This document shows, in pieces, positions 2 to 29,579 of a stretch of DNA of 64,000 nucleotides. The notes below the pieces were generated by a model. The model saw only the letters and a program-made list of their open reading frames with translations. It ran no database searches and had not been told where the DNA came from. The stretch's first letter is position 1, and each line of letters starts with the position of its first letter. The DNA is taken from contig NZ_JACVMX010000006.1 of NCBI RefSeq assembly GCF_014530035.1, positions 62,001 through 126,000 on the forward strand. Reading direction: 5' to 3'. The position numbers and the translations under genes are program-made. The DNA is from Leucobacter sp. cx-328. Its GTDB lineage: Bacteria > Actinomycetota > Actinomycetes > Actinomycetales > Microbacteriaceae.

Positions 2-1909
2 TTTCGTAAGAGCTTCCTAGATCAGTCAGAAGTTCGGTTCCCTGAAGGCATGATCTACGAGGACGTGGCTGTCATGCCTCGACTCTTCCTCGCGGCAGAA
101 CGGTTTGACGTATATAGCGATCCCGTTGTTTTCTGGCGTATCACTGATGGCAGCATCACCCAGACGCTTCGACCAGCCAAGGCGCTTGATCGGCTACAAG
201 TGCTTGCGGAACTGCGTGAATTTTTCCTCTCAAATGATGCTGACGAAGCGCTCATTGATGAATTCGACTTTGCGGTTCTCGACTACAATCTTCGTTGGCT
301 GTACCAAGAGTTCTGCCGATATGACGACGCGACGCAGCTCGAGATCTTGAGCCAGTCGGGTGAACTCGTCAAGCCGATTCGTGAAACGGTGGTGCAACGC
401 GTTCCGGAGCCGCTTCGTACCTGGGTACACCTTTCCCGAGAGGGGCATAATCGGGAGCTCACTAAGATCCTAGAAAACGCGCCGAAGCTTGTGAATTTGC
501 GTGTCGACGCCACTCCCGATGATGTTCGGAACGGTGAGGCCGATGAGCGGCGGAAAGCCCTAATGGTTCGCCGTGCAGAGATACGTCACAAGTGGCTTCG
601 CCGCGTACGAAATGTCTGTATTTATCTGGTGTTTCGACCTATCGTTCTGCTCATTCCGATTGACCAACGTCGCGTATTCGTAGCGAACTACTGGGGAAAC
701 AAATTCTCTTTATCTGACGGGCCAGCAGCCCTTGCGGTTCGTATCGCGCAAGAACGCCCAGATATGAAAATCACAGTGCTCAGCACGAAGCATAATAAGC
801 GTCAAATCCATAGTTCAGTGCAAGCACTGATGGGATCCGCCGCCCGAGTGAGTGTAGTCAAGAACCACTCATTCCGATACTTCTACCACCTGTGGCGTGC
901 AAAATACTTGTTCAACGATGTGAACTTTTCGATTGGCTTCAACGTAGACCGATTCGTTGAAAAGCGCCCTGGGCAGATCGAGATTCAGACAACTCACGGC
1001 ACTCCACTCAAGAAGATGGGTGTTGACTCTGAAGCTGCGATCAGTGTTGAAGAGATGCCAAAGTTCCTCGCGAAGAGCAAGAGGTATGACTACCTTGTAG
1101 CGCCCAGTCCGATGGTAGGAAAGATCTTCGCTGATTCGCATGCCGTATCACCGAAGCTGTTGCAAACTGGACTACCCCAGAACGATCGTTTGTTCGAGCC
1201 GATTACCAGTGATGAGGTCGCGGCGATTAAAGCGAAGTATGACATCGATCCGACTCGGAAACTGCTGGTCTACGCTCCGACGTACCGTTATCGGGGAGGT
1301 ACGGCCTTTCCCTATGCAATTGACTTTGCACGTCTCAAGGCTGAATTCGGCGATGAATACCAGATCGTCATCAAGACGCATCCTTTTACGCATACTCGAC
1401 TCGATGGGCTCTACTTCAGGGAGCTCACCGATCATGCCCTAACAATTAGCGGCAAGCCATTTATCAAACTCTTTGGCGAACTACGCGAAGAAAAGCCGCG
1501 CGTACCTGTGTACTTCAATTCAGACAAGCTCGACATCACGATGCTGAAGCACGAAACTCCAGCTGATATCAACGAACTCATGCGTGCAGCGGATGTGCTG
1601 GTCACCGACTACTCGTCAATTCTCTTCAATTTCCCGCATCTCGATAAGCCACTCATCGCATTTGCCCCAGACGCGGAACTGTACGAGTCAAGCCGTGGCA
1701 TGTATTTCAGCCTCAAAGACATCGTTCCTGGAGCGTTCACTCAAACCACAGAAGAACTGATTGCTGCTGTGCAGAAGGCGGGATCCCCAGACGAATGGGA
1801 TGCTGCCTATGGTGAGCGTGTGAGTGAGTTCACCAGACAATTCCACCACTGGGAAACTGGTGATGCGTCGGGAAAGATCCTGCGTGAGCTCGGAATTCTG
1901 TCTCGCTAA
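2..1909 (+). CDS. TagF-like CDP-glycerol glycerophosphotransferase family protein (5' end outside window)
   Basis: C-terminal part of a polymerase of the CDP-glycerol:poly(glycerophosphate) glycerophosphotransferase family, which works at the inner face of the membrane and adds polyol-phosphate units to a teichoic-acid-like or capsular chain. The frame is open to the left edge with no stop, so the ATG at 50 is internal. The first residues (FPEGMIYEDV, FWRITDGS) read like the tail of a family-2 glycosyltransferase, so the whole gene is probably a GT2-TagF fusion. Counting from base 50, the family segments THGTPLKKMG (about residue 315), LLVYAPTYR, IKTHPF and TDYSSILFNF (about 519) are visible. 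It ends at a strong hairpin facing a convergent ABC exporter operon, which suggests its product or a related polymer is the export cargo. The exact polyol unit cannot be told from sequence. Confidence 0.9.
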   Translation, partial: FRKSFLDQSEVRFPEGMIYEDVAVMPRLFLAAERFDVYSDPVVFWRITDGSITQTLRPAKALDRLQVLAELREFFLSNDADEALIDEFDFAVLDYNLRWLYQEFCRYDDATQLEILSQSGELVKPIRETVVQRVPEPLRTWVHLSREGHNRELTKILENAPKLVNLRVDATPDDVRNGEADERRKALMVRRAEIRHKWLRRVRNVCIYLVFRPIVLLIPIDQRRVFVANYWGNKFSLSDGPAALAVRIAQERPDMKITVLSTKHNKRQIHSSVQALMGSAARVSVVKNHSFRYFYHLWRAKYLFNDVNFSIGFNVDRFVEKRPGQIEIQTTHGTPLKKMGVDSEAAISVEEMPKFLAKSKRYDYLVAPSPMVGKIFADSHAVSPKLLQTGLPQNDRLFEPITSDEVAAIKAKYDIDPTRKLLVYAPTYRYRGGTAFPYAIDFARLKAEFGDEYQIVIKTHPFTHTRLDGLYFRELTDHALTISGKPFIKLFGELREEKPRVPVYFNSDKLDITMLKHETPADINELMRAADVLVTDYSSILFNFPHLDKPLIAFAPDAELYESSRGMYFSLKDIVPGAFTQTTEELIAAVQKAGSPDEWDAAYGERVSEFTRQFHHWETGDASGKILRELGILSR

Positions 1910-2007: not shown

Positions 2008-3126
2008 CTAGTTTGACGGAATGAATGCAATACCGCTTTTCACGGTGAACTCAACTTCACCGTGCTGGAACGGCATGCGGCGTACACCCTCATCCTGGAA
2101 CGACCCCCGTGGTCCACTCACAATGAAACCCCAAGGGCCAGACGGTCCACCAGCCTGCCGGTAACCTTCGGAGAACAAACCAGTTCCGATGCCAGCGGTA
2201 CCGACGGTATCGGAACTGGTGATTAGACCACGCTCGAAGTGCTGTACCCAACCGCCGCCATTCTTGGTGACCCGTTCCGCGGGCCCGCGCGGAATGCCCC
2301 ACTGACCAGGGTTTTCCATATAGTAATCGTAGATGGCACCCTCAATAGGGTAGGGGCTCTTTAAATCATCGAGTGATTCCGCTCGTACATACTCAACGGC
2401 CTCGTCGATAGGGCCGTCAAACATCATCTGCCCATGATTTAATACAATGCCACGTTCGCAGAGTTCTTTAACCTGGCTAGCATTGTGGCTCACAACAAAC
2501 ATGGTCTTCCCATTTGCCTGAAACTCTTTCATTTTCGCGGTGCACTTCTTACGGAACTGTGCATCGCCGACAGAGAGAATCTCGTCGACCAACAGAACGT
2601 CCAGTTCTGTGTGTACGGCGACGGAGAAGCCGAGACGAGAATACATGCCAGAGGAATAGCGTTTCACTTCAGCATCAATGAACTCCCCGATCTCGGAAAA
2701 CTCAAGAATTGACTCAAACCTTGCATCAGTTTCTTCCTTGGACATGCCAAGAATTGCTGCGTTCAGATAGACGTTTTCTCGCCCGGTGAGGTCAGGATGG
2801 AAACCGGCCCCGACCTCCAGCAAGCCAGCTACACGGCCACGTGTACGGATCCATCCCGAGTCAGGACGCATGACACCTGAGAGTAGTTTCAAGGTCGTGG
2901 ATTTACCTGATCCGTTGCGCCCAAGAAGCGCAACCGACTGGCCCTCTGGCACCTCGAATGAGACATCGTCTACGGCGTTAAACGACGTCTTCAAATTCTT
3001 CCGCTGCATTGCAGCAATCACAGTCTCTTTGAACGAACTTGTGTGATTGATTTGGAAGGTCTTCATAACCTTGTTGAAAATGATCGCAGGCTTGGCCTGC
3101 GTTTGGTCGTTAGAGAGTTTGGGCAA
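2008..3126 (-). CDS. Polysaccharide/teichoic-acid ABC exporter ATPase with C-terminal LGFP-like module
   Basis: Cytoplasmic ATPase of a TagH/Wzt-type exporter; it pairs with the permease encoded just upstream. Walker A (GRNGSGKST), the signature YSSGM, Walker B (VLLVDE) and the H-loop histidine (VVSHN) are all present. After the nucleotide-binding domain, the last ~105 residues (QWGIPRGPAER, NGGGWVQHFERG, GYRQAGGPSGPWG, MPFQHGEVEF) match the LGFP repeats of the secreted protein at 9069-11111 in the same order. No membrane segment separates the domains, so this module should sit in the cytosol, where Wzt proteins keep their glycan-recognition domain. The frame extends to a TTG at 3165 without a ribosome site; I prefer the TTG at 3126, with GGAGGG 5 bases upstream, giving 372 residues and a 17-base overlap with the permease end. 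Confidence 0.9.
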   Translation of the reverse strand: MPKLSNDQTQAKPAIIFNKVMKTFQINHTSSFKETVIAAMQRKNLKTSFNAVDDVSFEVPEGQSVALLGRNGSGKSTTLKLLSGVMRPDSGWIRTRGRVAGLLEVGAGFHPDLTGRENVYLNAAILGMSKEETDARFESILEFSEIGEFIDAEVKRYSSGMYSRLGFSVAVHTELDVLLVDEILSVGDAQFRKKCTAKMKEFQANGKTMFVVSHNASQVKELCERGIVLNHGQMMFDGPIDEAVEYVRAESLDDLKSPYPIEGAIYDYYMENPGQWGIPRGPAERVTKNGGGWVQHFERGLITSSDTVGTAGIGTGLFSEGYRQAGGPSGPWGFIVSGPRGSFQDEGVRRMPFQHGEVEFTVKSGIAFIPSN

Positions 3127-3976
3127 ACTTGCCCTCCAATCGGCGGAAGACCAGCTGCCCGACAAGCAGCGTGATTACAGAGAGAGCAAGCCCGATACCA
3201 ATGTTGAGCAACATGTGGTCCGGCCGCGGGGTATTGCCAGCCATTGGCAGCCAGAACGCATCGTGGAAGAGCTCGACTGCGGTAGTCATCGGGTTTGCCA
3301 TGTAGATGTTGTAGAGCCACTCTGGAGCGCGGTCGTGAACCATCGTCCAGGAGTAAAGTACGGGCGAGGTCCAGGTGGCAAACATCAAAATGAGATCCAC
3401 GAAGTTGCGGGAGTCACGGTAGGCAACGTTCAGCGCGCCGAAGAAGAGGCCGAGTCCGAGGGCGAAGAGCAAGATGATGAAGACACCTAGTAGGAATGCT
3501 CCGATTGCAGCAAAACTAATAGCCCATCCCAGGAAAAGGGCTACAACGAGAAGCACGACAGCTTGCGGAAGGAAATGTACGAGCGCGACTCCGACCGCAG
3601 CAACCGGGAAAAGCTCGCGCGGCATGAAGATTTTCTTCACGAGTGCCTTGTTGTCGACAATCGCACTGGTGGTGTTGCGCAATGCTTCACTGAACAGGTT
3701 TACAGCGACGATTCCAGCGACAAGATACACGGGGAAAAGAGGCACACCCTTGTTTGCGTCTAGCACTACACCAAACACTAGGTAATACATCAAAAACTGC
3801 GCGAGCGGGCGAATGTATGACCAAATCCAGCCGAGCGCCGAACCGTAATAGCGAGTTGAAATACCCTTTTTCAGGAGCAGCTGCAAGAGATACCGGTGCT
3901 TAAACACATCGACAAGCCCTCGGCTAGCGCCAGGGGTAGAGAAATCTGGGTCGCTGATCGCCGCATTCTCAGTCAT
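3110..3976 (-). CDS. Polysaccharide ABC exporter permease (TagG/Wzm type)
   Basis: ABC-2 family membrane subunit of 288 residues that forms the channel for an undecaprenyl-linked glycan or teichoic acid. The N-terminus is cytosolic and is followed by an amphipathic segment (KKGISTRYYGSALGWIWSYIRP) and about six membrane spans, the usual layout and length for Wzm/TagG. The segment KIFMPRELFPVAAVGVALVHF is typical of the family's connecting helix. ATG start with AGGAT upstream. Its 3' end overlaps the ATPase gene, which indicates translational coupling. The pair is the only ABC exporter in the locus and coexists with two Wzx flippases. Confidence 0.93.
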   Translation of the reverse strand: MTENAAISDPDFSTPGASRGLVDVFKHRYLLQLLLKKGISTRYYGSALGWIWSYIRPLAQFLMYYLVFGVVLDANKGVPLFPVYLVAGIVAVNLFSEALRNTTSAIVDNKALVKKIFMPRELFPVAAVGVALVHFLPQAVVLLVVALFLGWAISFAAIGAFLLGVFIILLFALGLGLFFGALNVAYRDSRNFVDLILMFATWTSPVLYSWTMVHDRAPEWLYNIYMANPMTTAVELFHDAFWLPMAGNTPRPDHMLLNIGIGLALSVITLLVGQLVFRRLEGKFAQTL

Positions 3977-4032: not shown

Positions 4033-4758
4033 TTAACGAGGCGTGACGGGCAGGGCATTCTCAATCGAACGCCAACTGAGAACCGCTGCTGTAAGTGAGT
4101 CGAGGCAATCAGGTAGGGCCCGTTCAGAAAGCAACAAGTCACCTTCGGCATAGCGTCGGGTGAGTTCAGCAATCGAACTTGCGCTATGGCCTGCGCGCTC
4201 GGCGCCAACAGCATTCACTCCCATAAGCCGAGGAGGCGTGCCATACACCTTGCCATAAGGAGGTATGTCACGAGTGACGGGAGTTCCCATACCGATCATC
4301 GCGCCTTCAGCGATAACGCGTCGCTGGTGCACAACAGCGTTCATGCCGATGTTTACACGATCGCCTATCTCGCAGTGGCCGCCAATTGAAACGCCCGCGG
4401 AGACAGTAACTCGCTCGCCTACAATTACATCGTGAGCAAGATACGCGCGATTCAGAATCCAGCTATCCGCTCCTACGGTGGTTTCACGGTAGCTACCTTG
4501 GTGGATTACGGCCTGCTCGCGAATGACCGCACCACGGCCGATGCGAACACCCGCATGCTGGAGGTCACCCGTCCAAGCTGGGTTCTGTGCCAGGTTTGAC
4601 ATTTCGGGAGGCGCACCAATTTGTGCACCTGGTCCGATCCACACCTCGTCTTCAATGACACATGGGCCGAGTATCACAGCACCCGGTCCGACGCATACGC
4701 CGGACCCGATCGTGACTCCTTCGCCGATGAAAGCTGCGGGGCTAATCAGAGTATTCAT
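4033..4758 (-). CDS. LpxA-like hexapeptide-repeat acyl/acetyltransferase
   Basis: Left-handed beta-helix transferase of 241 residues. Repeated hexapeptides (IGEGVTIGSGVCVGPGA and onward) fill the first ~180 residues. The middle resembles UDP-GlcNAc O-acyltransferase LpxA: a catalytic-type histidine in AYLAHDVIVG, then GMNAVVHQ, VTRDIPPYGKVYG and a C-terminal helical tail beginning GVNAVGAERAGHS. True lipid A is not expected in an actinobacterium, so I infer N- or O-acylation of a nucleotide-activated (amino) sugar for the surface glycan. Its ATG overlaps the stop of the sugar dehydrogenase gene (ATGA), so the two are translated together. The same dehydrogenase plus acyltransferase pairing is known for GnnA/LpxA and WbpB/WbpD. 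Acyl donor and substrate are unknown. Confidence 0.82.
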   Translation of the reverse strand: MNTLISPAAFIGEGVTIGSGVCVGPGAVILGPCVIEDEVWIGPGAQIGAPPEMSNLAQNPAWTGDLQHAGVRIGRGAVIREQAVIHQGSYRETTVGADSWILNRAYLAHDVIVGERVTVSAGVSIGGHCEIGDRVNIGMNAVVHQRRVIAEGAMIGMGTPVTRDIPPYGKVYGTPPRLMGVNAVGAERAGHSASSIAELTRRYAEGDLLLSERALPDCLDSLTAAVLSWRSIENALPVTPR

Positions 4759-5756
4759 GCAATGCCGTACCCAGAAAGTCGCTCTGTTTGACCAGTTTTG
4801 CCTGACCTTATTGAAGCCTCGATGACGCGCAACGTTTCAAGACCCTCGCGCAACGTGACTGCGTCGTGTCGCACGCCAAGGATGGCATCACGGAACGCTT
4901 CGTGTTCGCTCTTGAGCGGCTCGCGCTTCTCGAGCGCAAAACGGGTGACGGTGCCTTCACTTACGCCCCGGAATGCGGAAACTGCATCCCATGACGTGCC
5001 AATGGTGCCGTTCTCGTAGTAGGTGAGGTCAGCAGTGAGAGTGTCTGCAACCATCGCACCACGCTCTCCCGTAACGATGGTGAGACGTTCTTTGAAAGGT
5101 GTGAGCCAGTTCACGACATGATTCACAATGATGCCGTTGGCGAGCATTCCTGAGACGAGAATCATGTCCTCGTGCTCGCGCCCACTCTGGTATGCGGTTT
5201 CTGCGGATACGCGCTCATACGATGATTGCGCTAGCCATGCTGTGAGGTCAACGTCATGACTGCCAAGGTCCTTCGCGACACCAACGTCAGCGATACGTGC
5301 TGGGAACGGCCCCTGCCGACGAGTCTGAATCTGGTAAACCTGTCCGAGGTCGCCGTTGGCGATACGCTCTCGCAGACTCAAGAGCGCCGGGTTAAATCGC
5401 TCAACATGGCCCACTGCAGCAATTAGGTCTTTTGCTTCGAAAGCTGTAACTAGGCGGTTTGCTGCAGCCAGGTCGTGCGCTACCGGCTTTTCAACGAGGG
5501 TGTGTACGCCTGCCGCTGCTAGCTTCAGGCCGACTTCTTCGTGAAACTTTGTTGGAACCGCAACGATGGCTGCATCGATTCCAGCACTGATGAGCCCCTC
5601 GACTGAGTCAAACATTGGGGTATCGCCCGCGACTCCGTGAGGGTCACCCATCGCATCAGCGACGGCGACCAGCTCGATGCCGTCGGTTTCGCGGATTACT
5701 CTTGCGTGATGACGCCCCATCATGCCGAGTCCGATGAGGCCGTAGCGAATACTCAA
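4755..5756 (-). CDS. Gfo/Idh/MocA family sugar dehydrogenase
   Basis: NAD(P)-dependent oxidoreductase of 333 residues. The Rossmann start YGLIGLGMMGRHHARV, the catalytic EKPVAHD lysine motif and the GSHDVD segment with its histidine mark the family. Members in glycan clusters oxidise C3 of UDP-GlcNAc or UDP-GlcNAcA so that a DegT aminotransferase can then add nitrogen; a DegT enzyme is encoded at 11195. The frame runs upstream to 5828, but TTG 5756 has AAGGAG 7 bases before it and places the start directly at the Rossmann strand. The stop overlaps the next gene's ATG. The exact sugar substrate is an inference from neighbours. Confidence 0.88.
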   Translation of the reverse strand: MSIRYGLIGLGMMGRHHARVIRETDGIELVAVADAMGDPHGVAGDTPMFDSVEGLISAGIDAAIVAVPTKFHEEVGLKLAAAGVHTLVEKPVAHDLAAANRLVTAFEAKDLIAAVGHVERFNPALLSLRERIANGDLGQVYQIQTRRQGPFPARIADVGVAKDLGSHDVDLTAWLAQSSYERVSAETAYQSGREHEDMILVSGMLANGIIVNHVVNWLTPFKERLTIVTGERGAMVADTLTADLTYYENGTIGTSWDAVSAFRGVSEGTVTRFALEKREPLKSEHEAFRDAILGVRHDAVTLREGLETLRVIEASIRSGKTGQTERLSGYGIA

Positions 5757-5837
5757 GGTGTTGCTCCTTACCAAATTGGTGTGTTTCCAGCGGCCCTGAG
5801 GTCGAGGTATGTGGGAAATTTTACCCAAAAACGCGTG

Positions 5838-7841
5838 TTACTGGCTGATATCGCAACCAGTAACCTCATAGACAACTGCGTCACCCTCACGGTCGATCTC
5901 CGTGAACATGTCTGATTCTCCTACATCTGTGATTCCAAGGAAGGGCTCTGCGCGCTTAGTGCCAGGGAAAACATACTTGGTTCCGAAATCAAGAATGTAG
6001 CGGGCACCTAGTTGCTCTACCAGCTCGCATGATCGCGGAGTGCCATATTTTAGTTCTGAGGTGAGCTCAGCAATTCTAGGATCGTAGTTTCCCCCGGTGT
6101 GGGGCGTAAGCACTGGAATGCCACTAATCGCATATGCTAGTGCGCCACCGTTCCAGGGATTGTCTATGATGACTGCATTCTCTGGCAGTGTTTCGGAAAG
6201 ACGCTCAAGCACTGCACGCTCATCGACGTCAAGTAGGACAGCATTTGGCCCGGACTTCTCGTACTTCGAACTCACATATTGAATTCCGGCATGTGCGCCA
6301 GCGCCCTGAGTGGCAGCAAGCAAGAAAAGTACTGCGAGCGCGGACCCGCCAATACGAGCAAACTTTGGACGCTGTACGAGACGTGCCCATCGGACAAGCC
6401 CTCCGCGCAGTGCGCTCCAACCGAGGCTGGCGCCCAGGACGATGAATGGGAAGACCCCCATCCATACGAGGGCTGACAATCGCCAGGGGGTGTTGTACCA
6501 CGGAGTGAGGAAGAAAGTTCGCCACTCCGAGGGTGGGAAGCCGTCAGAGATAATGTACAACGCTAGGAACAGCACACCTGGGACGAAGAGCCAACGCATC
6601 CGTGTCAGACGAATCACAACAACGAATCCAACAAGCATGAGCAGGCTGACCGGCCATACATGTCCCTCGAGATGGGGGCTCATGCCAATGGCGTCAAGAA
6701 GTGCGCCCTTGGGCCCCTTATCGCCTCCCCAAGGAGCATCGGATGTACGACCAACGTACCAAGCGACGATGATGAGAGCGAAAAGTCCTAAACAACCGAG
6801 TGCGGCCAGACTGATACGCGGACCTTTGGAGAGCAGTGCTGCTCCAAGCTCGCCGGTGCGCTGCGGCACATTTGCGCCGCGAATTGCTCGAATAAGCAGA
6901 TACAAGCTCGGGCCGATAAGCCAGACGAGGATTGCATGCATGCCGTTGGGGTGTGCAAGCACCACAGCGCCAAAGCTGCCAAACAGCAGCAAGAGCGCTG
7001 AGCCCATGGAATTCATGTCACTTCTACGAGCCTTGGCAATACCGAAGAGCTGCATGAACGCGATGAGGAAATACGGAATCAACGCAAAGGCGAGCAGATT
7101 CGGATACAAAATACCGTAGCCGGTGAGGGAGAGGGGGAAGCTAGGAATGGCAACTGAGAGCACGCCAGAAATGAAGCTGACTCGAGCACTCGGACCAGCA
7201 ATTGCGCGCCCGAAACCGACCATTCCGACAGTCCAAATGATGGCGATTGTGGCGAAGAGTGCCGCATTTGTTGCAAGCGGAATTGAAACGCTACTGAGCT
7301 GAACGATCAGGGCTACCAGACCGTGCCAGAGCGTCGGGTAGAAGACCTTCGCGCCCGGCGCTGAAAGGTCCATATCGTATGGGGCGGCACTGCCTTCGTC
7401 GAGAATCTTCTGCACCGCGTTGAGGTGGAAGTTCACATCGTAGGTCTGTGAAATTGCGTCGGGAGATTTGATTGCCAACACAACAGATGCTGTGATTGTG
7501 AGACCGCCGATTGCTGCGGCAACGGTTGGAATCCAGAAGCGCTTTGCACCCGAACTGTGTGCACTTGATCCCTTGCGTTGAATCGCCATGAACGGACGGA
7601 GGGCGAACAATACGACCGTCAATACCACAGTCAGCCCAATGGCCGGCAATACTGTCCAAAAGATACCTAAGAACGGTGCGATGAAGGAGCTTAACGCTAG
7701 AACCGCGAAGGCCGCAGGGATTGAGATGAGTAGGACAGAAAACCCACGTGCGCGCAATGCAAACGCGATAGGTAACCCGAGGACCGCGATGAGACCAAGC
7801 ATGGTGACCACCGGGAGCACCAGCGCAAGCCATTGGAGCAT
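5838..7841 (-). CDS. Large multi-pass membrane protein, DUF6541-like
   Basis: A 667-residue integral membrane protein with about a dozen hydrophobic segments and a C-terminal extracytoplasmic region of ~130 residues (from about YVSSKYEKSGPN onward). The layout resembles GT-C-type glycosyltransferases that use polyprenyl-phosphate sugars, and I recognise the DUF6541 style of actinobacterial glycan loci, though the enzymatic role is unproven. Its ATG shares one base with the stop of the DUF2304 gene upstream (TAATG). The operon order GT2 - DUF2304 - this protein suggests the GT2 makes a polyprenyl-phosphate sugar and this protein transfers it, or modifies the polymer, outside the membrane. Confidence 0.75.
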   Translation of the reverse strand: MLQWLALVLPVVTMLGLIAVLGLPIAFALRARGFSVLLISIPAAFAVLALSSFIAPFLGIFWTVLPAIGLTVVLTVVLFALRPFMAIQRKGSSAHSSGAKRFWIPTVAAAIGGLTITASVVLAIKSPDAISQTYDVNFHLNAVQKILDEGSAAPYDMDLSAPGAKVFYPTLWHGLVALIVQLSSVSIPLATNAALFATIAIIWTVGMVGFGRAIAGPSARVSFISGVLSVAIPSFPLSLTGYGILYPNLLAFALIPYFLIAFMQLFGIAKARRSDMNSMGSALLLLFGSFGAVVLAHPNGMHAILVWLIGPSLYLLIRAIRGANVPQRTGELGAALLSKGPRISLAALGCLGLFALIIVAWYVGRTSDAPWGGDKGPKGALLDAIGMSPHLEGHVWPVSLLMLVGFVVVIRLTRMRWLFVPGVLFLALYIISDGFPPSEWRTFFLTPWYNTPWRLSALVWMGVFPFIVLGASLGWSALRGGLVRWARLVQRPKFARIGGSALAVLFLLAATQGAGAHAGIQYVSSKYEKSGPNAVLLDVDERAVLERLSETLPENAVIIDNPWNGGALAYAISGIPVLTPHTGGNYDPRIAELTSELKYGTPRSCELVEQLGARYILDFGTKYVFPGTKRAEPFLGITDVGESDMFTEIDREGDAVVYEVTGCDISQ

Positions 7842-8230
7842 TACTTATTGTCCCCGTCTGCCTGCGTTGCTGATTTTTGATCGCATGTGGTCAATTGCTC
7901 AGTGAGGCGTGCCTCCATGAGAGCGACCGCACGCGCAAGATCGGTGACGCGTGCATCTGAACGGGCTTTTGCCCTCACGGTCGCGACAGCAAACACCAGA
8001 ACCATGACGATGAAGACATAGAGGAGTAAATCGGTGCCGCGTCCGATACCGAAGAAGTGAGCTACAGAGGTGAGCATCCCCGGGAAGATAATTGCAAATA
8101 CTGCCGCGAGCACAAAGAGGAGCGCGAAGATTCGCTTCAGCGCAAGTGAACGTTCTCCTGGCAGTACTTTCACGGCATATGCGGCCGCTCCAATGATGCC
8201 TGCGATGAGCAGGAACTGAAAAATAGACAT
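7841..8230 (-). CDS. DUF2304 family small membrane protein
   Basis: A 129-residue protein with three or four hydrophobic helices, the family segment GIGRGTDLLLY, then a charged C-terminal helix (RAVALMEARLTEQL) that could form a coiled coil in the cytosol. DUF2304 proteins usually sit beside DPM1-like GT2 enzymes and are thought to help anchor the enzyme or move its lipid product; no reaction has been assigned. It lies 9 bases after the GT2 gene and overlaps the DUF6541-like gene by one base, so the three are one transcriptional and translational unit. Confidence 0.88.
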   Translation of the reverse strand: MSIFQFLLIAGIIGAAAYAVKVLPGERSLALKRIFALLFVLAAVFAIIFPGMLTSVAHFFGIGRGTDLLLYVFIVMVLVFAVATVRAKARSDARVTDLARAVALMEARLTEQLTTCDQKSATQADGDNK

Positions 8231-8239
8231 GTCGCCCTG

Positions 8240-8938
8240 CTATCGGATGATGAGGTCAATAAGAATGTTGACTGAATTGAGAAGCGATTGCCCCTTCGCT
8301 CGAGAGTAATCGGTGTAGATCACTTCGACTGGCTGCTCGGCATAGGGCAATCCGGTCTTACCTAGCTGCACGACAATCTCAGTGCCGTGGGCCATGCGAT
8401 CCTGGCGGAGTTTAATCTGTCGAAGCGCATCCGCGCGAATCACACGAAGACCATTGTGCGCATCGGTCAAGCGTGTTCTGGTCGACCAATTTGTAACCGC
8501 GACAGCAGTTTTGAGTACGATCTTTTTCAGAATGCCGGGTTTTGTTCGGTCATCGAGGAATCGTGAACCGAAGACAATCGCTAAGTCTTCATCCCGCGCT
8601 CGATTAAGCATTGCCTGCGCGTCGACAACGCGATGCTGACCGTCCGCATCAAATGTGACGACAAACTGTGCGCCCTGCTCGAGCGCGTATTCAAAGCCTG
8701 TTTGCAGAGCAGCGCCCTGGCCAAGATTTATGGGATGAGTGACGACGTGCGCGCCAGCGATGTGGGCAATCTCTGCGCAACCATCTCGAGAGCCGTCGTC
8801 GATGCACACCACATTAGAAAAGGCGGGCATGAGTTCTCGAACGACGTCGCCGATCACCTGAGCTTCGTTGTACAGGGGAATAACAACCCAAGTATCCGCT
8901 TCACGGTGTGCGCGAGCGTGCGTCTCTCCAATGGCCAT
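8240..8938 (-). CDS. GT2 polyprenyl-phosphate glycosyltransferase (DPM1-like)
   Basis: Family-2 transferase of 232 residues that probably makes a polyprenyl-phosphate hexose from a nucleotide sugar at the inner membrane face. It shows the GT-A start WVVIPLYNEA, the CIDDGSRDG loop, the metal-binding TFDADGQH motif and an acceptor region (LTDAHNGLRVIRADAL). It lacks the C-terminal membrane helices some members have; the neighbouring DUF2304 protein may supply the anchor. An ATG three codons upstream (8947) is possible, but a -10-like CAGAAT at 8946-8951 lies 7 bases before ATG 8938, which favours a leaderless start there. It is divergent from the LGFP protein gene. Confidence 0.88.
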   Translation of the reverse strand: MAIGETHARAHREADTWVVIPLYNEAQVIGDVVRELMPAFSNVVCIDDGSRDGCAEIAHIAGAHVVTHPINLGQGAALQTGFEYALEQGAQFVVTFDADGQHRVVDAQAMLNRARDEDLAIVFGSRFLDDRTKPGILKKIVLKTAVAVTNWSTRTRLTDAHNGLRVIRADALRQIKLRQDRMAHGTEIVVQLGKTGLPYAEQPVEVIYTDYSRAKGQSLLNSVNILIDLIIR

Positions 8939-9068
8939 AAATACCATTCTGACAGATCAGACCCCAGAAACTGGTCAACGACGAAATAGCCTCGCGCTTG
9001 TTGAGCGGTCAGGCAGTAGCTATCGTGGCTTAGTAAGAGTCTCAACTACAGGTAGAAGGTTGGCTGGA

Positions 9069-11111
9069 ATGCTTCAAAGCAGAAACTCTCGCGAGGCGAT
9101 GTCTGTGCGAAAACCTTGGCATGTATGGCTCCTGGTGATTGCGCTGTTGGTCGCAGGAATTACACCTGCGCTTCAGGCCGCTCCTGCGGAAGCTGCGAGT
9201 ATCAGCGATGGCTTCCAGCCAGGACGCATTATCAGTGATGAGCTGTTCTACCAAGGTTCTGCGATGACGACCGCTGAGGTTCAAGCGTTCCTAAACAAGC
9301 AGGTTTCCAACTGTAGAATTGGTGACCCCGGGTATAAACCTGGGGATTTGTCTCCAAGCGGGTCGGGCAATCGTATTGCCAGCGCGTGTTTGAAGAACTT
9401 TAAGATGACGACGCAGAGTCGGCCTGCGGATGCGTACTGCAAAGCCTATGCCGGGGCTGCTAATGAATCGGCTGCGCAGATCATCACAAAGGTCGGGCAA
9501 GCGTGTGGAATCAGCCAGCGCGTCATCCTGATCATGCTCGAGAAAGAGCAGAGCCTCGTGACCGATAGCTGGCCCGTGACTCGTCAGTACAGTTACGCCA
9601 TGGGCATGGACTGCCCAGATAGTGGACCAGGTAATTCGGCAAACTGCGATGAATCGGGTGCGGGTTTCTTTCAGCAGGTGATCCGGGGCACTCGTCAGCT
9701 CCAGGTGTACCGCCTAAACCCATCTTCGTTCCGGTACAAGCCATTCCAGACAAATACGATTCAGTGGCATCCGAACACAGGCTGCGGCACGTCCCAGGTG
9801 TATATCGAGAATCGTGCGACGGCATCGCTCTACATCTATACCCCTTATCGCCCGAATCAGGCAGCTCTGAACGCTGGTTGGGGCACTGGCGACGGCTGTT
9901 CAACTTACGGTAATCGAAACTTTTACAACTTCTATAAGAGCTGGTTTGGCTCGCCGAGCGGTATTCCGGTGACTGGAAAGATTCAGACATTCTGGGAAAA
10001 GTATGGTGCGAGTGGTGGGGTCTACGGCACGCCAAAGGCTGCTGCCCAGAGCATCTCAGCGAATGGTGGCGGACTGGTCCAGGAGTTCACAGGTGGCGTG
10101 ATCTTCATGGAGAACAAGACTGGCACTGTCACCGGCATGCAGAACGGTGTCTTCTTGACGAACTACCGAGGTGCGGGATTCGTTCAGGGTAGCTGGGGTT
10201 GGCCAGTTGAAATAGCAAAGTGTGGGCTTGCGAGTGGTGGCTGCACGATGAAGATGCAGAACGGTACGGTCGCGTATTCGAATACCTATGGCTCGCAGCT
10301 CATTGCCAAGCAACTCGAAGCCGAATGGGCTCGCGCTGGAGGTGCTGGGGGTGCATATGGATATCCTCGCTCGGCTGCAGAGTTCGCGCCGAAGAAATAC
10401 AGTCTCGTGCAGCACTTTGCAAATGGGCATCTGGCTTGGAGCGAGCAGGGTGGGGCTCGTGTCTTCCATGCCCAGTTTGTCGAGCCTTGGAAAGCAATCG
10501 GTGGCATCAATGGTGCGCTAGGCGTTCCCGCTGCACCTGTGGATTCTGTCGTAGAGAACGGTGGCGGCAAGATTCAAGAATTCACGAACGGCACGATGTT
10601 CGGTTCTTCTCGCGGTTCGTTTGCGATGGAGAATGGTGCGTTCCGGTCGGGGTATTTGAATGCTGGTGGTCCTGCGGGTTCGTGGGGTTGGCCTGCTGGT
10701 AAGGCGTCGTGTGGGTTGCCTGGTGGTGGCTGTCAGATGCCGTTCCAGAACGGTATTGGGATGTGGTCTTCGGGTACCGGCATGGTGCTGGTGTCGCAGG
10801 ATTCGTTCGATATGTGGAACATGGTGAAGGGTTCTATCGGGTATCCGTCGAAGGTGCCGTCGAAGCTCACTGTGAATGGCGGTGGTGAGGTGCAGGAGTT
10901 CACGAATGGGACTGTGTGGACGTCGCCGCTTGGTTCGTTTGCGATGGAGAATGGTGCGTTCCGGTCGGGGTATTTGAATGCTGGTGGTCCTGCGGGTTCG
11001 TGGGGTTGGCCTGCTGGTAAGGCGTCGTGTGGGTTGCCTGGTGGTGGCTGTCAGATGCCGTTCCAGAACGGCGAGGTGCGCTACGAGAACGGTGTCTTTA
11101 GCCTTCGGTAA
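9069..11111 (+). CDS. Secreted LGFP-repeat cell-wall protein with lysozyme-like N-terminal domain
   Basis: Exported protein of 680 residues. A signal peptide (WHVWLLVIALLVAG, cleavage near APAEAA) is followed by a ~240-residue globular domain with several cysteines and the segment LIMLEKEQSLVT. This domain recurs in actinobacterial hemagglutinin-like proteins; its conserved Glu-rich helix looks like a muramidase/transglycosylase acid, but activity is inferred. From about residue 290 to the end are tandem LGFP-type repeats (GGVYGTPKAA, NGGGLVQEFTGG, GSWGWP) that bind the cell envelope in corynebacteria. ATG 9069 has GAAGG 9 bases upstream; ATG 9099 is the alternative. The last repeats are freshly duplicated at DNA level. 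The same module ends the ABC ATPase at 2008-3126. Confidence 0.88.
   Translation: MLQSRNSREAMSVRKPWHVWLLVIALLVAGITPALQAAPAEAASISDGFQPGRIISDELFYQGSAMTTAEVQAFLNKQVSNCRIGDPGYKPGDLSPSGSGNRIASACLKNFKMTTQSRPADAYCKAYAGAANESAAQIITKVGQACGISQRVILIMLEKEQSLVTDSWPVTRQYSYAMGMDCPDSGPGNSANCDESGAGFFQQVIRGTRQLQVYRLNPSSFRYKPFQTNTIQWHPNTGCGTSQVYIENRATASLYIYTPYRPNQAALNAGWGTGDGCSTYGNRNFYNFYKSWFGSPSGIPVTGKIQTFWEKYGASGGVYGTPKAAAQSISANGGGLVQEFTGGVIFMENKTGTVTGMQNGVFLTNYRGAGFVQGSWGWPVEIAKCGLASGGCTMKMQNGTVAYSNTYGSQLIAKQLEAEWARAGGAGGAYGYPRSAAEFAPKKYSLVQHFANGHLAWSEQGGARVFHAQFVEPWKAIGGINGALGVPAAPVDSVVENGGGKIQEFTNGTMFGSSRGSFAMENGAFRSGYLNAGGPAGSWGWPAGKASCGLPGGGCQMPFQNGIGMWSSGTGMVLVSQDSFDMWNMVKGSIGYPSKVPSKLTVNGGGEVQEFTNGTVWTSPLGSFAMENGAFRSGYLNAGGPAGSWGWPAGKASCGLPGGGCQMPFQNGEVRYENGVFSLR
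10614..11071 (+). repeat. 140-bp perfect direct repeat inside the LGFP region
   Basis: Bases 10614-10753 and 10932-11071 are identical by eye over 140 bp, encoding the same ~46 residues (GSFAMENGAFRSG through MPFQNG). The repeat uses T-ending codons (GGT, TCG, TTG) more than its neighbours. This is a recent in-gene duplication or a homogenised repeat, and a spot where repeat number can change. Confidence 0.9.
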
Positions 11112-11146: not shown

Positions 11147-11194
11147 GTGTGCAATCAAAACCCGTGGATCGAATACACGGTGAAGGGTATCCAA

Positions 11195-12313
11195 ATGTCA
11201 TCTCTCGAAGCATTCATTCCTCCGGCAAAGCCGATCGTTGGCGATCTGGAACGTGAATATGTGGACCGTGTGCTCCGATCAGGAATGATTGCGCAGGGGC
11301 CCGAGGTTAAGACCTTCGAGGAAGAGTTCGCCGCGCACTTCGTGCAGGGCCGTGAGACCGTTGCCGTGAACTCAGGCACGTCCGGTCAGCATCTAGGGCT
11401 GCTCGCTGCGGGTGTTGGCCCCGGTGATGAGGTCATCGTTCCGTCGTTCACCTTCGCAGCGACAGGCAACTCGGTTGCTCTTACCGGCGCAACGCCCGTG
11501 TTTGCCGATATCGAGCTCGATACCTTCTCACTTGATCCCGAGTCTGTGCGAGCTGCAATCACCCCGCGCACGAAGGCAATCATGCCAGTGCACCTCTACG
11601 GTCACCCGTTCATGGTCGATGAGATCGAGGCAATTGCCAAGGAGCACGGCCTTGAGATTTATGAGGACGCAGCTCAGGCACACGGTGCTTCCTGGAACGG
11701 CCGTCCGGTTGGCACCATCGGCAAGTTCGCGATGTTCAGCCTGTACCCGACGAAGAACATGACCGCTGGCGAGGGTGGCATGGTCACTTGCGCTGACGCG
11801 GATACCGCGCGAAACGTTCGGTTGCTCCGCAACCAGGGCATGGAGACGCAGTACGCGAACGAGGTCGTCGGCTTCAACGCCCGCATGACTGACGTGCACG
11901 CTGCCATCGGCCGTGCTCAGCTGACGAAGGTTGATGGCTGGACCACACAGCGTCAGCAGAACGCTGCGTTCCTTGACGCCGGACTTGCTGCGATCGACGG
12001 CGTAACGACCCCGGTCGTTCGTGACGGTGCTGTCCACGTCTACCACCAGTACACCATCCGCGTGGATGCGGGTGAGCGTGACCGCATTCGGGAGGCTTTG
12101 CAGACCGAACACAACATCGGCACGGGTGTCTACTACCCGATCCCGAACCACCGCCTGCCCTCGCTCACGAAGTTCGCAGAAGGACTCGACCTGCCAGTAA
12201 CTGAGACGGCTGCCCGTGAGGTGCTGTCACTTCCGGTGCACCCGTCACTGACCGCTGGTGATCTCGAGCGCATTGTCTCTGGCGTAACCGCGGTTGTTTC
12301 AGCGGGCGCGTAA
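11195..12313 (+). CDS. DegT/DnrJ/EryC1/StrS sugar aminotransferase
   Basis: PLP-dependent aminotransferase of 372 residues acting on keto-sugars linked to UDP or dTDP. Visible are the phosphate-binding NSGTSGQHLGLL, VPSFTFAATGNSV, EDAAQAHGA and the PLP lysine in YPTKNMTAGEGG (K187). It resembles WbpE/GnnB-type 3-aminotransferases, which follow a Gfo/Idh dehydrogenase such as the one at 4755. The open frame starts at GTG 11147, inside a palindrome; ATG 11195 with AAGGG 7 bases upstream is better and puts the start at the conserved IPPAKPIVG. It is the first gene of a short unit with the GT4 at 12351. Confidence 0.92.
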   Translation: MSSLEAFIPPAKPIVGDLEREYVDRVLRSGMIAQGPEVKTFEEEFAAHFVQGRETVAVNSGTSGQHLGLLAAGVGPGDEVIVPSFTFAATGNSVALTGATPVFADIELDTFSLDPESVRAAITPRTKAIMPVHLYGHPFMVDEIEAIAKEHGLEIYEDAAQAHGASWNGRPVGTIGKFAMFSLYPTKNMTAGEGGMVTCADADTARNVRLLRNQGMETQYANEVVGFNARMTDVHAAIGRAQLTKVDGWTTQRQQNAAFLDAGLAAIDGVTTPVVRDGAVHVYHQYTIRVDAGERDRIREALQTEHNIGTGVYYPIPNHRLPSLTKFAEGLDLPVTETAAREVLSLPVHPSLTAGDLERIVSGVTAVVSAGA

Positions 12314-24367: not shown

Positions 24368-26149
24368 CTACGCAGAGGGGCCGTTGTGTGAGTCGTTGTC
24401 AGAGGCTGGTCGATCCGCCCGGAAGCTCTGCTCAGCCAGATCCATGAGCTCGGCAACACGAAGGCTATTGCGGCGATACTCATCGAGCTCATCCTCTAGC
24501 TCCGTGATGCGGTTGGTGAGCGCGTCGAGCTGCGCGCGAGTTCCCGCGGGACGGGTGCGCATGAATAGACGCTTCAGACGCTGTCGCATGGAGACCTCCT
24601 GGGTCGGGAAAGGATGATCGGAAAGTACGAATCGCACGCCGTATGGACGACGATCCATCGTCGGGATCTGTGTTGCCGGAGTGAAATACTCAAACGACAG
24701 GCCAAATTTGTGGGCCGCATTGGCAAGCTCGAACTGGTTGAGGTGCCAGGTTGTTGGATCTGCAAACGTCACGTCCTCCGCTGGGGACGCATAAAGCGTT
24801 GCGCAGGCTGATCCGCCCGACCGCAGTGCCATACGAATCAGCCGGAGCAGATTCTCGCGCGCGAGGTGTCCGAGCTGTTCGAACACATGGTTTGCGACGA
24901 CGTCGAATCGTCCGGTGATTCCCTGTTGCTTCGGCGCCGCAAGGGACAGTGTGCGGTACAGATTCACATGCGCGGTTTCGAACGGCGTTGCTGCGGCGGC
25001 GGATCGCTCCTGTGCAAGCTGCAGCGCAGCGTAAGAGTAATCGGTGGCGATCACCCGGCGGCCAGTATCAACTAGGGCGAGACGCTCGCTCAGCGCGCCG
25101 TTGCCTGCGCCAAACTCGAGGAGCACGGGGGACGTGAGCTCAGCTGACTGTTCGAGGATCCAGTCTGCTCCGTCTGCCCAGATGAGGTCGGCCTCGGCAC
25201 CACGGTTGAGGAACCACGCGTTCCAGAAGTCGCGCCCGAAATGGAAGGAACCAAACCATGCATTGAATCGGCGCGAAGTCGACTCAGGAGTCTGGAGCCG
25301 ATACCCGGGAATGGGGGTGCGCCAGTTCTCGTCATAGTTGATGACAAGCCAGGCCTCAGGATCCGCCGGCGCGGGAAACTCACGGCCAGCGATCGTGACG
25401 GTACCGAACGGCAGGATCTGGTCTTCGCGCAGATCGCCGCGCACGTGGAACGGCTGGTTCATCTTGCCATCGTCCGTGAAAAAGGCAGTGAAGACGTCAA
25501 CATAGTGGTCGACAAGACCAGAGTCGGTGCGGAAGTACAACTGCATGTGTGTTGCACTGTGCCGCACCAGCTCGTACCCCAGATCAATGAGCGCGTGACC
25601 GACTTGGAAGCCTTCGCGAGCGACATCTGCGGGATTGGTGAACTCCGAAAGATAGGCAACGTCAGCGTCGTCGTCGTGGGGGAGGAGCTCGCCCTCGCGC
25701 ACGCCACCGAGCAGGGTGCCGCCGACGACGAAAGGCCGGAGGCCCATGTCGCGCAGGTGACCGATGATCTCTGCGCTGCGGTCAAGGATGCGCTCCTGCA
25801 CACCAGGATTGCCAGCCTCAAGCGTCTTCCCGAGCATGCCCCACTTGTTCACCGCGAGGGGGATATTGTCGGCATCACGCACCTGGGCGCGGATCGCGTC
25901 AGCAGTGAATTCCACCTCGCCCGCGGCGAGGGCTTCCCCCGTTGCGCTGTGCAAAACGGTGAGGTGCGTGCTGCCGCGGAGATATGGGCGGAGGGAAATT
26001 GGCCACGGGAACGAGTGCTCATCAGAACGCTCGTTTTCGACAAGGTCAATTGACCACACACGATCGCCATCGAAACAGACATCGACAGAACGCACTGCAT
26101 CGGAGATCGGAGGCAGCGTGAGATCAAAAGAGTTTACAGAAAGTGCCAT
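24368..26149 (-). CDS. LicD-like phosphotransferase fused to a SAM methyltransferase
   Basis: A 593-residue three-part protein. Residues 1-85 form a beta-rich lead domain. About 120-280 is a LicD/fukutin-type nucleotidyltransferase fold: GGTLLGGVREGELLPHDDDA with metal-binding aspartates near D159-D163, and VDHYVDVFTAFF. LicD proteins move phosphocholine or polyol-phosphate from a CDP donor to a glycan. About 341-460 is a class I methyltransferase with motif I LLEFGAGNG and the acidic end of strand 2, IATD. Residues 536-572 form a coiled coil (LDALTNRITELEDELDEY). I infer that one protein both attaches a phospho-substituent and methylates it or the glycan end. Substrates are unknown. Confidence 0.85.
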   Translation of the reverse strand: MALSVNSFDLTLPPISDAVRSVDVCFDGDRVWSIDLVENERSDEHSFPWPISLRPYLRGSTHLTVLHSATGEALAAGEVEFTADAIRAQVRDADNIPLAVNKWGMLGKTLEAGNPGVQERILDRSAEIIGHLRDMGLRPFVVGGTLLGGVREGELLPHDDDADVAYLSEFTNPADVAREGFQVGHALIDLGYELVRHSATHMQLYFRTDSGLVDHYVDVFTAFFTDDGKMNQPFHVRGDLREDQILPFGTVTIAGREFPAPADPEAWLVINYDENWRTPIPGYRLQTPESTSRRFNAWFGSFHFGRDFWNAWFLNRGAEADLIWADGADWILEQSAELTSPVLLEFGAGNGALSERLALVDTGRRVIATDYSYAALQLAQERSAAAATPFETAHVNLYRTLSLAAPKQQGITGRFDVVANHVFEQLGHLARENLLRLIRMALRSGGSACATLYASPAEDVTFADPTTWHLNQFELANAAHKFGLSFEYFTPATQIPTMDRRPYGVRFVLSDHPFPTQEVSMRQRLKRLFMRTRPAGTRAQLDALTNRITELEDELDEYRRNSLRVAELMDLAEQSFRADRPASDNDSHNGPSA

Positions 26150-26276: not shown

Positions 26277-28181
26277 TTAGCGGCCTTCGAAGGTCGTCTG
26301 CCACTCTTCAGGAGTGGTCAGGCGCGGCATTGCGGTGCGGTACTCGGCCGCGAGGCGGTCCCAGTCCTTCACAATCTTGCGGTTGAGCTGGGTCGCTTCG
26401 CGCAGTAGGCGGCGGAACTTGGCCTGGTCATGGCGGTACCACATCTTGCCTGCGCCATCAGCGGAACCGACGATGACGCTTTCGTGCTGCGGGATGGTCC
26501 ACCAGAACGCATCGCGTTTGGCGTACTCGAGCTCGGGCTCGCGTGCATCGGTCTCTGCCGACTTACGCAGCCATGCTTTGGGGAGGTTCTTTGCGGTGAA
26601 CACGGCGAGCTTTGCGCCGCCGAAAGCCTCAGGACGTTCACTGACGTGGGGAAGTGCGCGGCCGTTGCGGGACGCAGGTGCATCTGCATCGCTCGTGCGA
26701 TAGACGCGAGTCTCGGGGTAGTCTTTCGCCGCTGCTCGAGCTGCAGGCATGTCTTGCGCCATCGTGGCGTGGAGCTGATCAGGGCCTGCGAGGACGGAGC
26801 GCATGCCGTCAACAGCGAGCTGCACCGCGTAGTACTGCATGTTCAGCAGCTGCTTTACGTTGATGCGGTTCAGGTTCTTCAGCATGCCGCGACCGCACTG
26901 CGGGGTCGCGTGCAGCAGGCCTGCAACGATGCGGTTGCGGGTGTGGAAGAACGACTGCCAGTCTTGCGTGTCGTCCTTATCAAGCCAAGAGACATGCCAA
27001 AGCGCGACGCCCGGAAGAGAAACCGTGCGGTAGCCCGCAGCTTTTGCGCGCAGCCCGTATTCTGCGTCGTCCCACTTAATGAAAACAGGAATTGAGAGAC
27101 CGATGTCTGCGATGACCTTCTTCGGAATCATGCACATCCACCAACCGTTGTAGTCGGCGTCAAGTCGCGAGTGCATCCAAGGAGTTTGGCGCAGGTTCTG
27201 CTTGCGGAAGTCATGGCGATGCTGCTCAGGGAACGACGGACCCCAGACGAAAGCGTCATCGCGCACAACCTCTGCCCACGCGTGCATGACGGGCTTGTCG
27301 AGGAGATCGAACATGTGACCGCCAACGATGACCGGATTACGGCTAAAACGGCCGAACTGAAGCGCGCGCAGCGCGCTCTCGGTCTCGAACTCGATGTCGT
27401 CATCGAGCAAGAGGAGGAAGTCGGTGTCTTCTCGCTTCAGCGTCTCAGCCATCGAGCGCGAGAAGCCACCTGAGCCGCCGATGTTCGGCTGCACGATGAG
27501 CTGCAGCTTGTCGCCGAGCTCAGCTGCAATTTCATCGAACCCAGGTTCGTCTGCGACCTGCTTCGAACCCTGATCGACAAGGAAGATACGGTCGAGGTTC
27601 TCGAGCAGCGTCGGGTTTGCTGCAATGTTGCGCAGCGTCACGACGCAGTAGTCGGCCTTGTTAAAGGTCGTCATACCGAGGCTGAGCTTCCCCTCGGTCG
27701 TGGGAGTCGCCTCCGTGGTCCAGCTGCCCTTCACGAGCTTGATGTCTGCATCGCCTGCGACAAGATCGAACCAGAGCCAACCACCGTCACCGAACATGGT
27801 GAGGGGAAGCATGAATTCGGTCTCGGCTTTGCCAGTCACCAGCGCGGAGTTGACTCGCTGCTGTGCACCGCTCGCGTTCGAACGGTACACAATGATCGTG
27901 CCGGTGCCCTCGGTCTGCAGGCGCAGGGTGACCTCAGTCACGGTTGTCCAGCGCTGCCAGTAGGAAGCGGGGAACGCGTTGAAGTACGAAGCGTATGAAA
28001 CGCGCTCGCCAGAGCGGACGCGGGTGCTTTCACGTGACAGCACACTGTCAATGCTCGCAACCTCGCTCAGACGAACGGGGGTTTCGTCAACCTCGGTCCA
28101 AGTCTCAGGGTCTGCATACAGCGGCAGCACGTCTGGGTCTTTGGCCTGCGGGAACACAACATGCTGGAGCGTAGTGGTCAT
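26277..28181 (-). CDS. Galactofuranosyltransferase, GlfT2-like GT2
   Basis: Processive-type galactofuranosyltransferase of 634 residues that uses UDP-Galf, made by the adjacent mutase, to build a galactan-like chain on a lipid carrier. The order fits mycobacterial GlfT2: an N-terminal beta-sandwich (~1-160), a GT-A core with QPNIGGSGGFSR and the metal site LLLLDDDIEFE (D260-D262), the acceptor/catalytic WDDAEYGLRAKAAGY, then LWHVSW, and a helical C-terminal tail. A TAGAAT box (28190-28195) ends 8 bases before the ATG, so transcription is probably leaderless. It is divergent from glf with 155 bases between the starts. Confidence 0.93.
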   Translation of the reverse strand: MTTTLQHVVFPQAKDPDVLPLYADPETWTEVDETPVRLSEVASIDSVLSRESTRVRSGERVSYASYFNAFPASYWQRWTTVTEVTLRLQTEGTGTIIVYRSNASGAQQRVNSALVTGKAETEFMLPLTMFGDGGWLWFDLVAGDADIKLVKGSWTTEATPTTEGKLSLGMTTFNKADYCVVTLRNIAANPTLLENLDRIFLVDQGSKQVADEPGFDEIAAELGDKLQLIVQPNIGGSGGFSRSMAETLKREDTDFLLLLDDDIEFETESALRALQFGRFSRNPVIVGGHMFDLLDKPVMHAWAEVVRDDAFVWGPSFPEQHRHDFRKQNLRQTPWMHSRLDADYNGWWMCMIPKKVIADIGLSIPVFIKWDDAEYGLRAKAAGYRTVSLPGVALWHVSWLDKDDTQDWQSFFHTRNRIVAGLLHATPQCGRGMLKNLNRINVKQLLNMQYYAVQLAVDGMRSVLAGPDQLHATMAQDMPAARAAAKDYPETRVYRTSDADAPASRNGRALPHVSERPEAFGGAKLAVFTAKNLPKAWLRKSAETDAREPELEYAKRDAFWWTIPQHESVIVGSADGAGKMWYRHDQAKFRRLLREATQLNRKIVKDWDRLAAEYRTAMPRLTTPEEWQTTFEGR

Positions 28182-28285: not shown

Positions 28286-29579
<1,294 letters not shown>

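Follow-up and report, generated by a model that had tools for sequence, protein, structure and literature searches.

According to PMC9445017, the C-terminal domain of Wzt attaches to the O antigen once this is complete, at its cap, and brings it to the transporter; the domain also functions when provided in trans. LGFP modules are described from the outer side of the cell: those of MytA interact with peptidoglycan-arabinogalactan (PMC11299179). The locus considered here combines an exporter ATPase and an LGFP module in one gene. It was found in a window of 64,000 nucleotides, that is, the whole stretch of DNA analysed, from Leucobacter sp. cx-328. Judging by sequence, structural models and analogy, we consider it likely that the window ATPase belongs to a type V Wzm/Wzt exporter whose cargo is a lipid-linked cell-wall glycan, and that its two-unit LGFP module stands where Wzt has the carbohydrate-binding domain.

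The exporter ATPase and its LGFP tail

The ATPase gene has a TTG start that overlaps the stop of the permease gene (Table 1). At the start site, 18 of the 19 aligned homologues have Leu-Pro or Leu-Leu (residue-level comparison). The ABC_tran match covers residues 53-183 (72.6 bits, Pfam). The best solved matches of the ATPase domain are 6amx, annotated as 'ABC transporter' (E 8.6e-58), which we take to be A. aeolicus Wzt, and TagH 7dd0 (E 8.7e-53). The solved matches also include 8dku, the WzmWzt of PMC9445017. The window ATPase is thus of the Wzt type with an adjacent Wzm permease, and it yields no match to Wzt_C (PF14524) at E up to 1 (Pfam).

What it has at the C-terminus is LGFP. The PF08310 match covers residues 284-330 (2137-2277) in one stretch, with 24.1 bits (E 4.6e-5, Pfam) at a curated cut-off of 22 bits. 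The tail consists of two successive LGFP units, of which only unit 1 scores above the Pfam cut-off. A structural model of residues 250-372, predicted from an alignment of 50 modules (mean pLDDT 92.9), shows the LGFP fold, that is, a helix and a sheet of three to four strands as in MytA. Foldseek with the tail model yields three PDB entries below E 0.001, all of them C. glutamicum MytA (E 4.1e-7 to 7.2e-7, TM 0.72-0.75), and in a PDB search a profile of 17 tails, constructed without secreted modules, matches the MytA (protein PS1) LGFP domain with E 1.8e-17. Profile and fold both align the two units of the tail with MytA. In the 50 aligned LGFP modules, three columns do not vary at all, and eight more are conserved at 90% or above. 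By the measure of these profiles and models, the resemblance of the tail to LGFP is homology, not chance. This confirms the LGFP module that the initial annotation had placed at the C-terminus of the ABC ATPase; the sequence blocks that it had named, such as NGGG-VQ-F, are present in both the ATPase and the secreted protein of the locus, and belong to the two LGFP units.

Table 1. Features of the exporter locus in the window
Feature	Coordinates	Strand	Remarks
CDP-glycerol:poly(glycerophosphate) transferase family protein	50..1909	+	Glyphos_transf 247.6 bits
ABC exporter ATPase	2008..3126	-	372 aa; fusion of nucleotide-binding domain and LGFP tail
LGFP unit 2	2017..2178	-	residues 317-370; helix and strands in model; no Pfam stretch of its own
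LGFP unit 1	2185..2340	-	residues 263-314; helix and strands in model; Pfam LGFP match 2137-2277
Nucleotide-binding domain, Wzt/TagH-like	2386..3126	-	residues 1-247; ABC_tran match
Permease, Wzm-like	3110..3976	-	ABC2_membrane 74.5 bits
Hexapeptide-repeat acyltransferase	4033..4758	-	
GFO/IDH/MocA oxidoreductase	4755..5828	-	
DUF6541 membrane protein	5838..7841	-	460 bits
DUF2304 small protein	7841..8230	-	77.6 bits
Family 2 glycosyltransferase (GT2)	8240..8947	-	
Secreted LGFP protein	9069..11111	+	LGFP 104.6 bits, 6 stretches (Pfam)
Two-repeat LGFP module closest to the tail	9963..10307	+	E 3.5e-22 with tail profile; first behind the N-terminal domain
DegT/DnrJ/EryC1 aminotransferase	11147..12313	+	
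Methyltransferase with LicD-like part	24368..26149	-	LicD 20.6 bits, below cut-off 22.6
GlfT2-like galactofuranosyltransferase	26277-28181		
UDP-galactopyranose mutase	28331-29494		

A candidate cargo and a possible capping enzyme

No second ATPase of this type was found in the genome of the window at E 1e-50. Given this and the nearby genes for a GlfT2-like protein and UDP-galactopyranose mutase, a galactofuran-containing polymer is a candidate cargo of the exporter.

The methyltransferase/LicD-like gene is situated 21 kb from the exporter. Its homologues adjoin the permease in four other loci (L084 and L125-L127), and the one in L125 has both a methyltransferase match and LicD at its cut-off (Pfam). 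The protein is a candidate capping enzyme. By analogy, it recalls WbdD, described in PMC3482155 as a kinase and methyltransferase that sets the O9a chain length. This possible cap maker is found near only some of the tailed loci, which counts against the reading proposed here.

Other modules in the same slot

In the tree of 76 ATPase cores, 36 have an LGFP tail, twelve Wzt_C, three SLH, one a leucine-rich and one a low-complexity C-terminus, and 23 have no module, the last label being set by length and the lack of an LGFP match. The Wzt_C label is above the Pfam cut-off in eleven of the twelve cases; in L149, where Pfam gave no Wzt_C match, it was assigned by eye. The SLH tails (L249, L254, L256) score 37.0-42.3 bits at a cut-off of 20.8, and the LRR_5 tail in L142 scores 87.1 bits at a cut-off of 27.7. 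LGFP tails are found on two ATPase subfamilies, and the LGFP label must have changed three times or more to fit the starred branches of the tree. Under the midpoint root, the LGFP-tailed ATPases of G309 and G320 group with the Wzt_C-bearing ones (97, starred). Within the main subfamily, every exporter has a Wzm-like permease in the examined stretch (33 of 33 tailed ones and 18 of 18 of the rest).

The glycan gene cluster accompanies 28/34 exporters with the tail and 5/18 without it (p 1.9e-4), although the tree offers only two or three independent pairs, too few to test. These five exporters have the same cluster but no LGFP tail, so not every polymer of this kind requires the tail; this, too, counts against the reading proposed here.

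Exporters of other architectures were also seen. A further Leucobacter exporter ATPase, in L142 (8509-9780), ends in a BspA-type leucine-rich repeat region; no LRR match, and hence no candidate LRR surface protein, was seen in the three scanned neighbours of this exporter. In L146 (3510-5159, G313), the permease and ATPase matches fall in one ORF, a fused Wzm-Wzt without a tail. The exporter ATPase in L134 (8037-9356) has a long low-complexity C-terminal tail rich in Gln, Lys and Pro.

One genome, G317, which consists of a single contig, has two exporter gene pairs, their starts being about 5.3 kb apart. The permeases (288/288 residues) and the ATPase cores (245/245) are identical. At the DNA level, the identity is 99.876% over a stretch of 1617 bp that begins slightly ahead of the permease start and closes with the core (L073 5815-7431 and 11131-12747). 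Only 47 of 128 residues (37%) are identical in the tails, both of which are above the LGFP cut-off (29.6 and 36.9 bits). Slow drift cannot explain such unlike tails, given cores so alike. Either duplication was followed by replacement of a tail, or the engine passed as a copy from one exporter to another while each kept its own tail. Being unlike in the tail alone, the pair offers a natural experiment on whether cargo choice in an ABC glycan exporter depends on the tail alone. A LicD-family gene and a GT2 gene are situated between the two copies in L073.

Distribution of the fusion

The LGFP-tailed ATPase is present in 35 of 54 Leucobacter genomes, with two in G317, and is missing in 19. Beyond the genus, the tail sequence was searched against 299 genomes of the family, including 7 from Leucobacter, and the tail profile against 396 phylum genomes and 396 order genomes, all in overlapping samples. 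Among the LGFP ORFs checked, which come from part of the loci matched in the phylum and order searches, no LGFP-ABC fusion was found outside Leucobacter, and the only ABC match in the checked loci was that of the window itself (BLAST; 57 ORFs, 2 of the genus, and 52 ORFs, 5 of the genus). A DNA pattern for the tail motif matched 21 stretches in named genomes, 20 of which contain an LGFP ORF by profile; the remaining one, in Actinoallomurus, has no LGFP ORF. Thirteen of the 20 are fusions, each in Leucobacter, and seven have no ABC match (three in Leucobacter, and one each in Plantibacter, Microbacterium, Rhodococcus and a MAG). Six pattern matches in a viral collection yielded no relative.

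No fusion of LGFP with an ABC exporter ATPase was found in the literature of open-licence PubMed Central. The nearest precedents are the C-terminal domain of Wzt and the extracellular SH3b-like domain of TagGH.

The secreted LGFP protein

The secreted protein has a signal-like N-terminus, as judged by eye and by hydropathy (2.61 near the N-terminus). In the alignment of 12 homologues, a conserved N-terminal domain (about 9192-9950) is followed by the LGFP repeats (about 9963-11108). The N-terminal domain has no Pfam match of its own, and its model (pLDDT 74) has no PDB match below E 0.001. The list of weak matches contains autolysin and lysozyme entries, a hint at most that the domain is possibly a wall hydrolase. 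The motifs MLEKEQ and YIYTPYRPN are conserved in the 12 homologues. The domain is present without LGFP in G070 (L270) and in G014 (L067), where the neighbour of the exporter keeps it and has no repeats.

The last 123 residues of the ATPase produce three main matches with the secreted protein (32-36% identity, E 2e-13 to 5e-13, BLASTP, single comparison), and the tail search of the whole genome finds the secreted protein at E 7.5e-12. PF08310 has six matches in the 2.64-Mb genome at E up to 0.001, and none is outside these two genes, which are situated about 8 kb apart: one match is in the ATPase gene and five are in the secreted one. The tails and the secreted modules have a common core of G277, F297, G300, Y322, W332, G333, F353 and G356.

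The 54 Leucobacter genomes comprise 24 with both the tail and a secreted LGFP protein, 11 with the tail only, 13 with the secreted protein only and six with neither. In the secreted-only group, the search of the LGFP ORFs for an ABC domain covered 12 of the 13 genomes, all but G329. There is no association between the tail and the secreted protein over these genomes (Fisher p 1.0, odds ratio 1.0), and strict co-occurrence is not found. Of the 24 genomes with both, 23 have them on the same contig at a distance of no more than about 18 kb; in the 24th (G315), they are on separate small contigs. The 11 tail-only genomes have no other LGFP match. At the level of loci, the secreted gene is present at 22/34 tailed exporters and at 5/18 others (p 0.019), with two or three independent pairs offered by the tree. 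Within the loci with the cluster, it is present at 21/28 tailed ones and at 4/5 without an LGFP tail. The association at the locus level seems to go through the gene cluster.

SLH tails

A parallel to the LGFP case is seen in G233, which represents another genus of the Microbacteriaceae. There an SLH-tailed ATPase of the subfamily adjoins four SLH genes with signal-like N-termini (L269 3803-10775), and this block of about 5.5 kb contains every one of the 12 SLH matches that the genome has at E up to 0.001. Two genomes of the same genus, G133 and G186, have ATPase frames too short for a tail (311 and 279 residues) and no SLH match. Of the other SLH-tailed genomes, G070 has SLH matches only in the ATPase tail, and G040 has two other SLH ORFs, both on other contigs. 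The arrangement of G233 is therefore not repeated in two of the three SLH-tailed genomes, which speaks against its generality. A query combining the ATPase end and the SLH tail, run against 238 genomes of the order, gave no further such fusion among the matches listed.

The ligand usually named for SLH is pyruvylated. The pyruvyl transferase family PF04230 is absent from G233 and is not found beside the exporter in G070 and G040, hence a pyruvylated SLH ligand is not supported there. An EmbC-type arabinosyltransferase gene is situated near an SLH-tailed exporter in L271 (18065-19999).

Possible role of the tail

The slot, the topology and the type of the module suggest that the LGFP tail does the work of the Wzt domain on a wall polymer. 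On the cytosolic side, the tail would bind a feature of the finished glycan; the binding would present the right cargo to the Wzm channel, and a changed tail would retarget the same transport engine. Here we infer the glycan as the ligand of the tail, its binding as the licence for export, and the identity of the polymer. LGFP reportedly binds the wall after its assembly, so inside the cell the tail could have a ligand of another kind. The initial annotation had proposed a Wzt-like reader built from an LGFP module, and this part of it is well supported by the slot, the absence of a membrane segment, the permease partner and the tails of G317.

The tail is probably cytosolic, because no membrane segment is predicted between the ATPase domain and the C-terminus. 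Membrane helices have a hydropathy of about 1.6; in the 36 tailed ATPases, the 19-residue mean stays at or below 1.12 in the whole part behind the ATPase domain, and in the three SLH-tailed ones the maximum is 0.64. Cysteine is present in only four of 36 tails, while CxnC pairs are found in the LGFP part of 15 of 27 secreted LGFP proteins. A TagH-like topology, with a membrane helix between the ATPase and the C-terminal domain, was rejected on the hydropathy. Hence the tail can hardly be outside the cell, even though there is a precedent: in the ATPase subunit of B. subtilis TagGH, an SH3b-like domain, which is of a wall-binding type, follows a membrane helix of its own (PMC11466899). It is also very improbable that the fusion arose by accident, or is in decay, and serves no function. 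The tail does evolve faster than the core (mean identity 41.1% and 80.5%, respectively, r 0.61 over 561 pairs of 34 main-subfamily ATPases), and it is missing in 19 of the 54 genomes; however, the frame of the tail is open in the other 35, three columns of the 50 modules are invariant with eight more at 90% or above, and an LGFP tail is also found on the second ATPase subfamily. The tail might instead be a docking module for a protein partner, such as a glycosyltransferase, a polymerase or a capping enzyme, and read no glycan. Q295, T303, F318, R349 and F368 show stronger conservation in 35 tails than in 15 secreted modules, which could point to a protein surface, and the two unlike tails on one engine in G317 could equally recruit two synthases. 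Nevertheless, we consider docking unlikely, as Wzt_C and SLH, found in the same slot, are known glycan or wall binders, and the glycine and aromatic core is common to the tails and the secreted modules.

If the tail reads a glycan, its ligand may or may not be that of the secreted protein. The initial annotation suggested that the two proteins recognise the same glycan, one before and one after export. By analogy this is plausible: the tail and the secreted gene share one locus in the 23 genomes mentioned above, and G233 repeats the arrangement with SLH. On the other hand, presence of the tail is not associated with that of the secreted protein over the 54 genomes, the secreted gene also occurs in four of the five cluster loci without an LGFP tail, the repeats are missing from the neighbour in G014, and several positions conserved in the tails are not conserved in the secreted modules; in particular, R349 is present in 91% of the 35 tails and is not kept in the 15 modules. 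Further, on a quick tree with many open forks, constructed for 36 tails and the best-scoring module of each of 20 secreted proteins (seven partial ones left out), the tails and the secreted modules form largely separate groups, with four changes compared to 16.6 in shuffles. It is thus quite possible that the tail reads a glycan unlike the ligand of the secreted protein, the two having only a common source of parts; this would be a refinement of the glycan-reading role rather than its replacement.

Returning to the tail as a glycan reader, we tentatively suggest, with more doubt than conviction, a more general rule: wall-polymer exporters may take an envelope-binding module of the cell's own surface proteins, LGFP in Leucobacter and SLH in G233, as the polymer reader inside the cell. 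Little is known, as far as we are aware, of what LGFP modules bind. If the rule is true, the ligand of the surface module can be read from the tail, and an exchange of tails, as in G317, gives the engine a new cargo. A cytosolic LGFP copy on an exporter would tie the module to one exported polymer and make the ligand testable with a small soluble protein.

Comparison with known systems

The galactan exporter Wzm/Wzt (RfbD/RfbE; NF050109, NF050108) is also an exporter of a wall glycan, with a related ATPase and permease. However, the model of its ATPase spans 244 positions and thus has no tail, unlike the window ATPase, which scores 153.2 bits with NF050108 (cut-off 400); the window permease scores 49 bits with the curated galactan-permease model NF050109 (cut-off 380).

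MytA (PS1), a mycoloyltransferase of C. glutamicum, has the same LGFP fold in its stalk, and it is the only solved match of the tail below E 0.001. Unlike the window ATPase, it is a secreted wall enzyme with five LGFP units. TagGH/TarGH of B. subtilis resembles the window exporter in that the ATPase subunit of a wall-polymer exporter carries a wall-binding type of domain, but that domain is SH3b-like and outside, behind the membrane helix (PMC11466899), whereas no helix is seen here.

Wzt of E. coli O9a and A. aeolicus is likewise a type V glycan exporter ATPase, with a cytosolic C-terminal domain in the same place and the permease encoded beside it. The C-terminal domain differs: in Wzt the reader is a jelly-roll dimer (Wzt_C), whereas here, in a Gram-positive actinobacterium, the putative reader is formed by two LGFP units.
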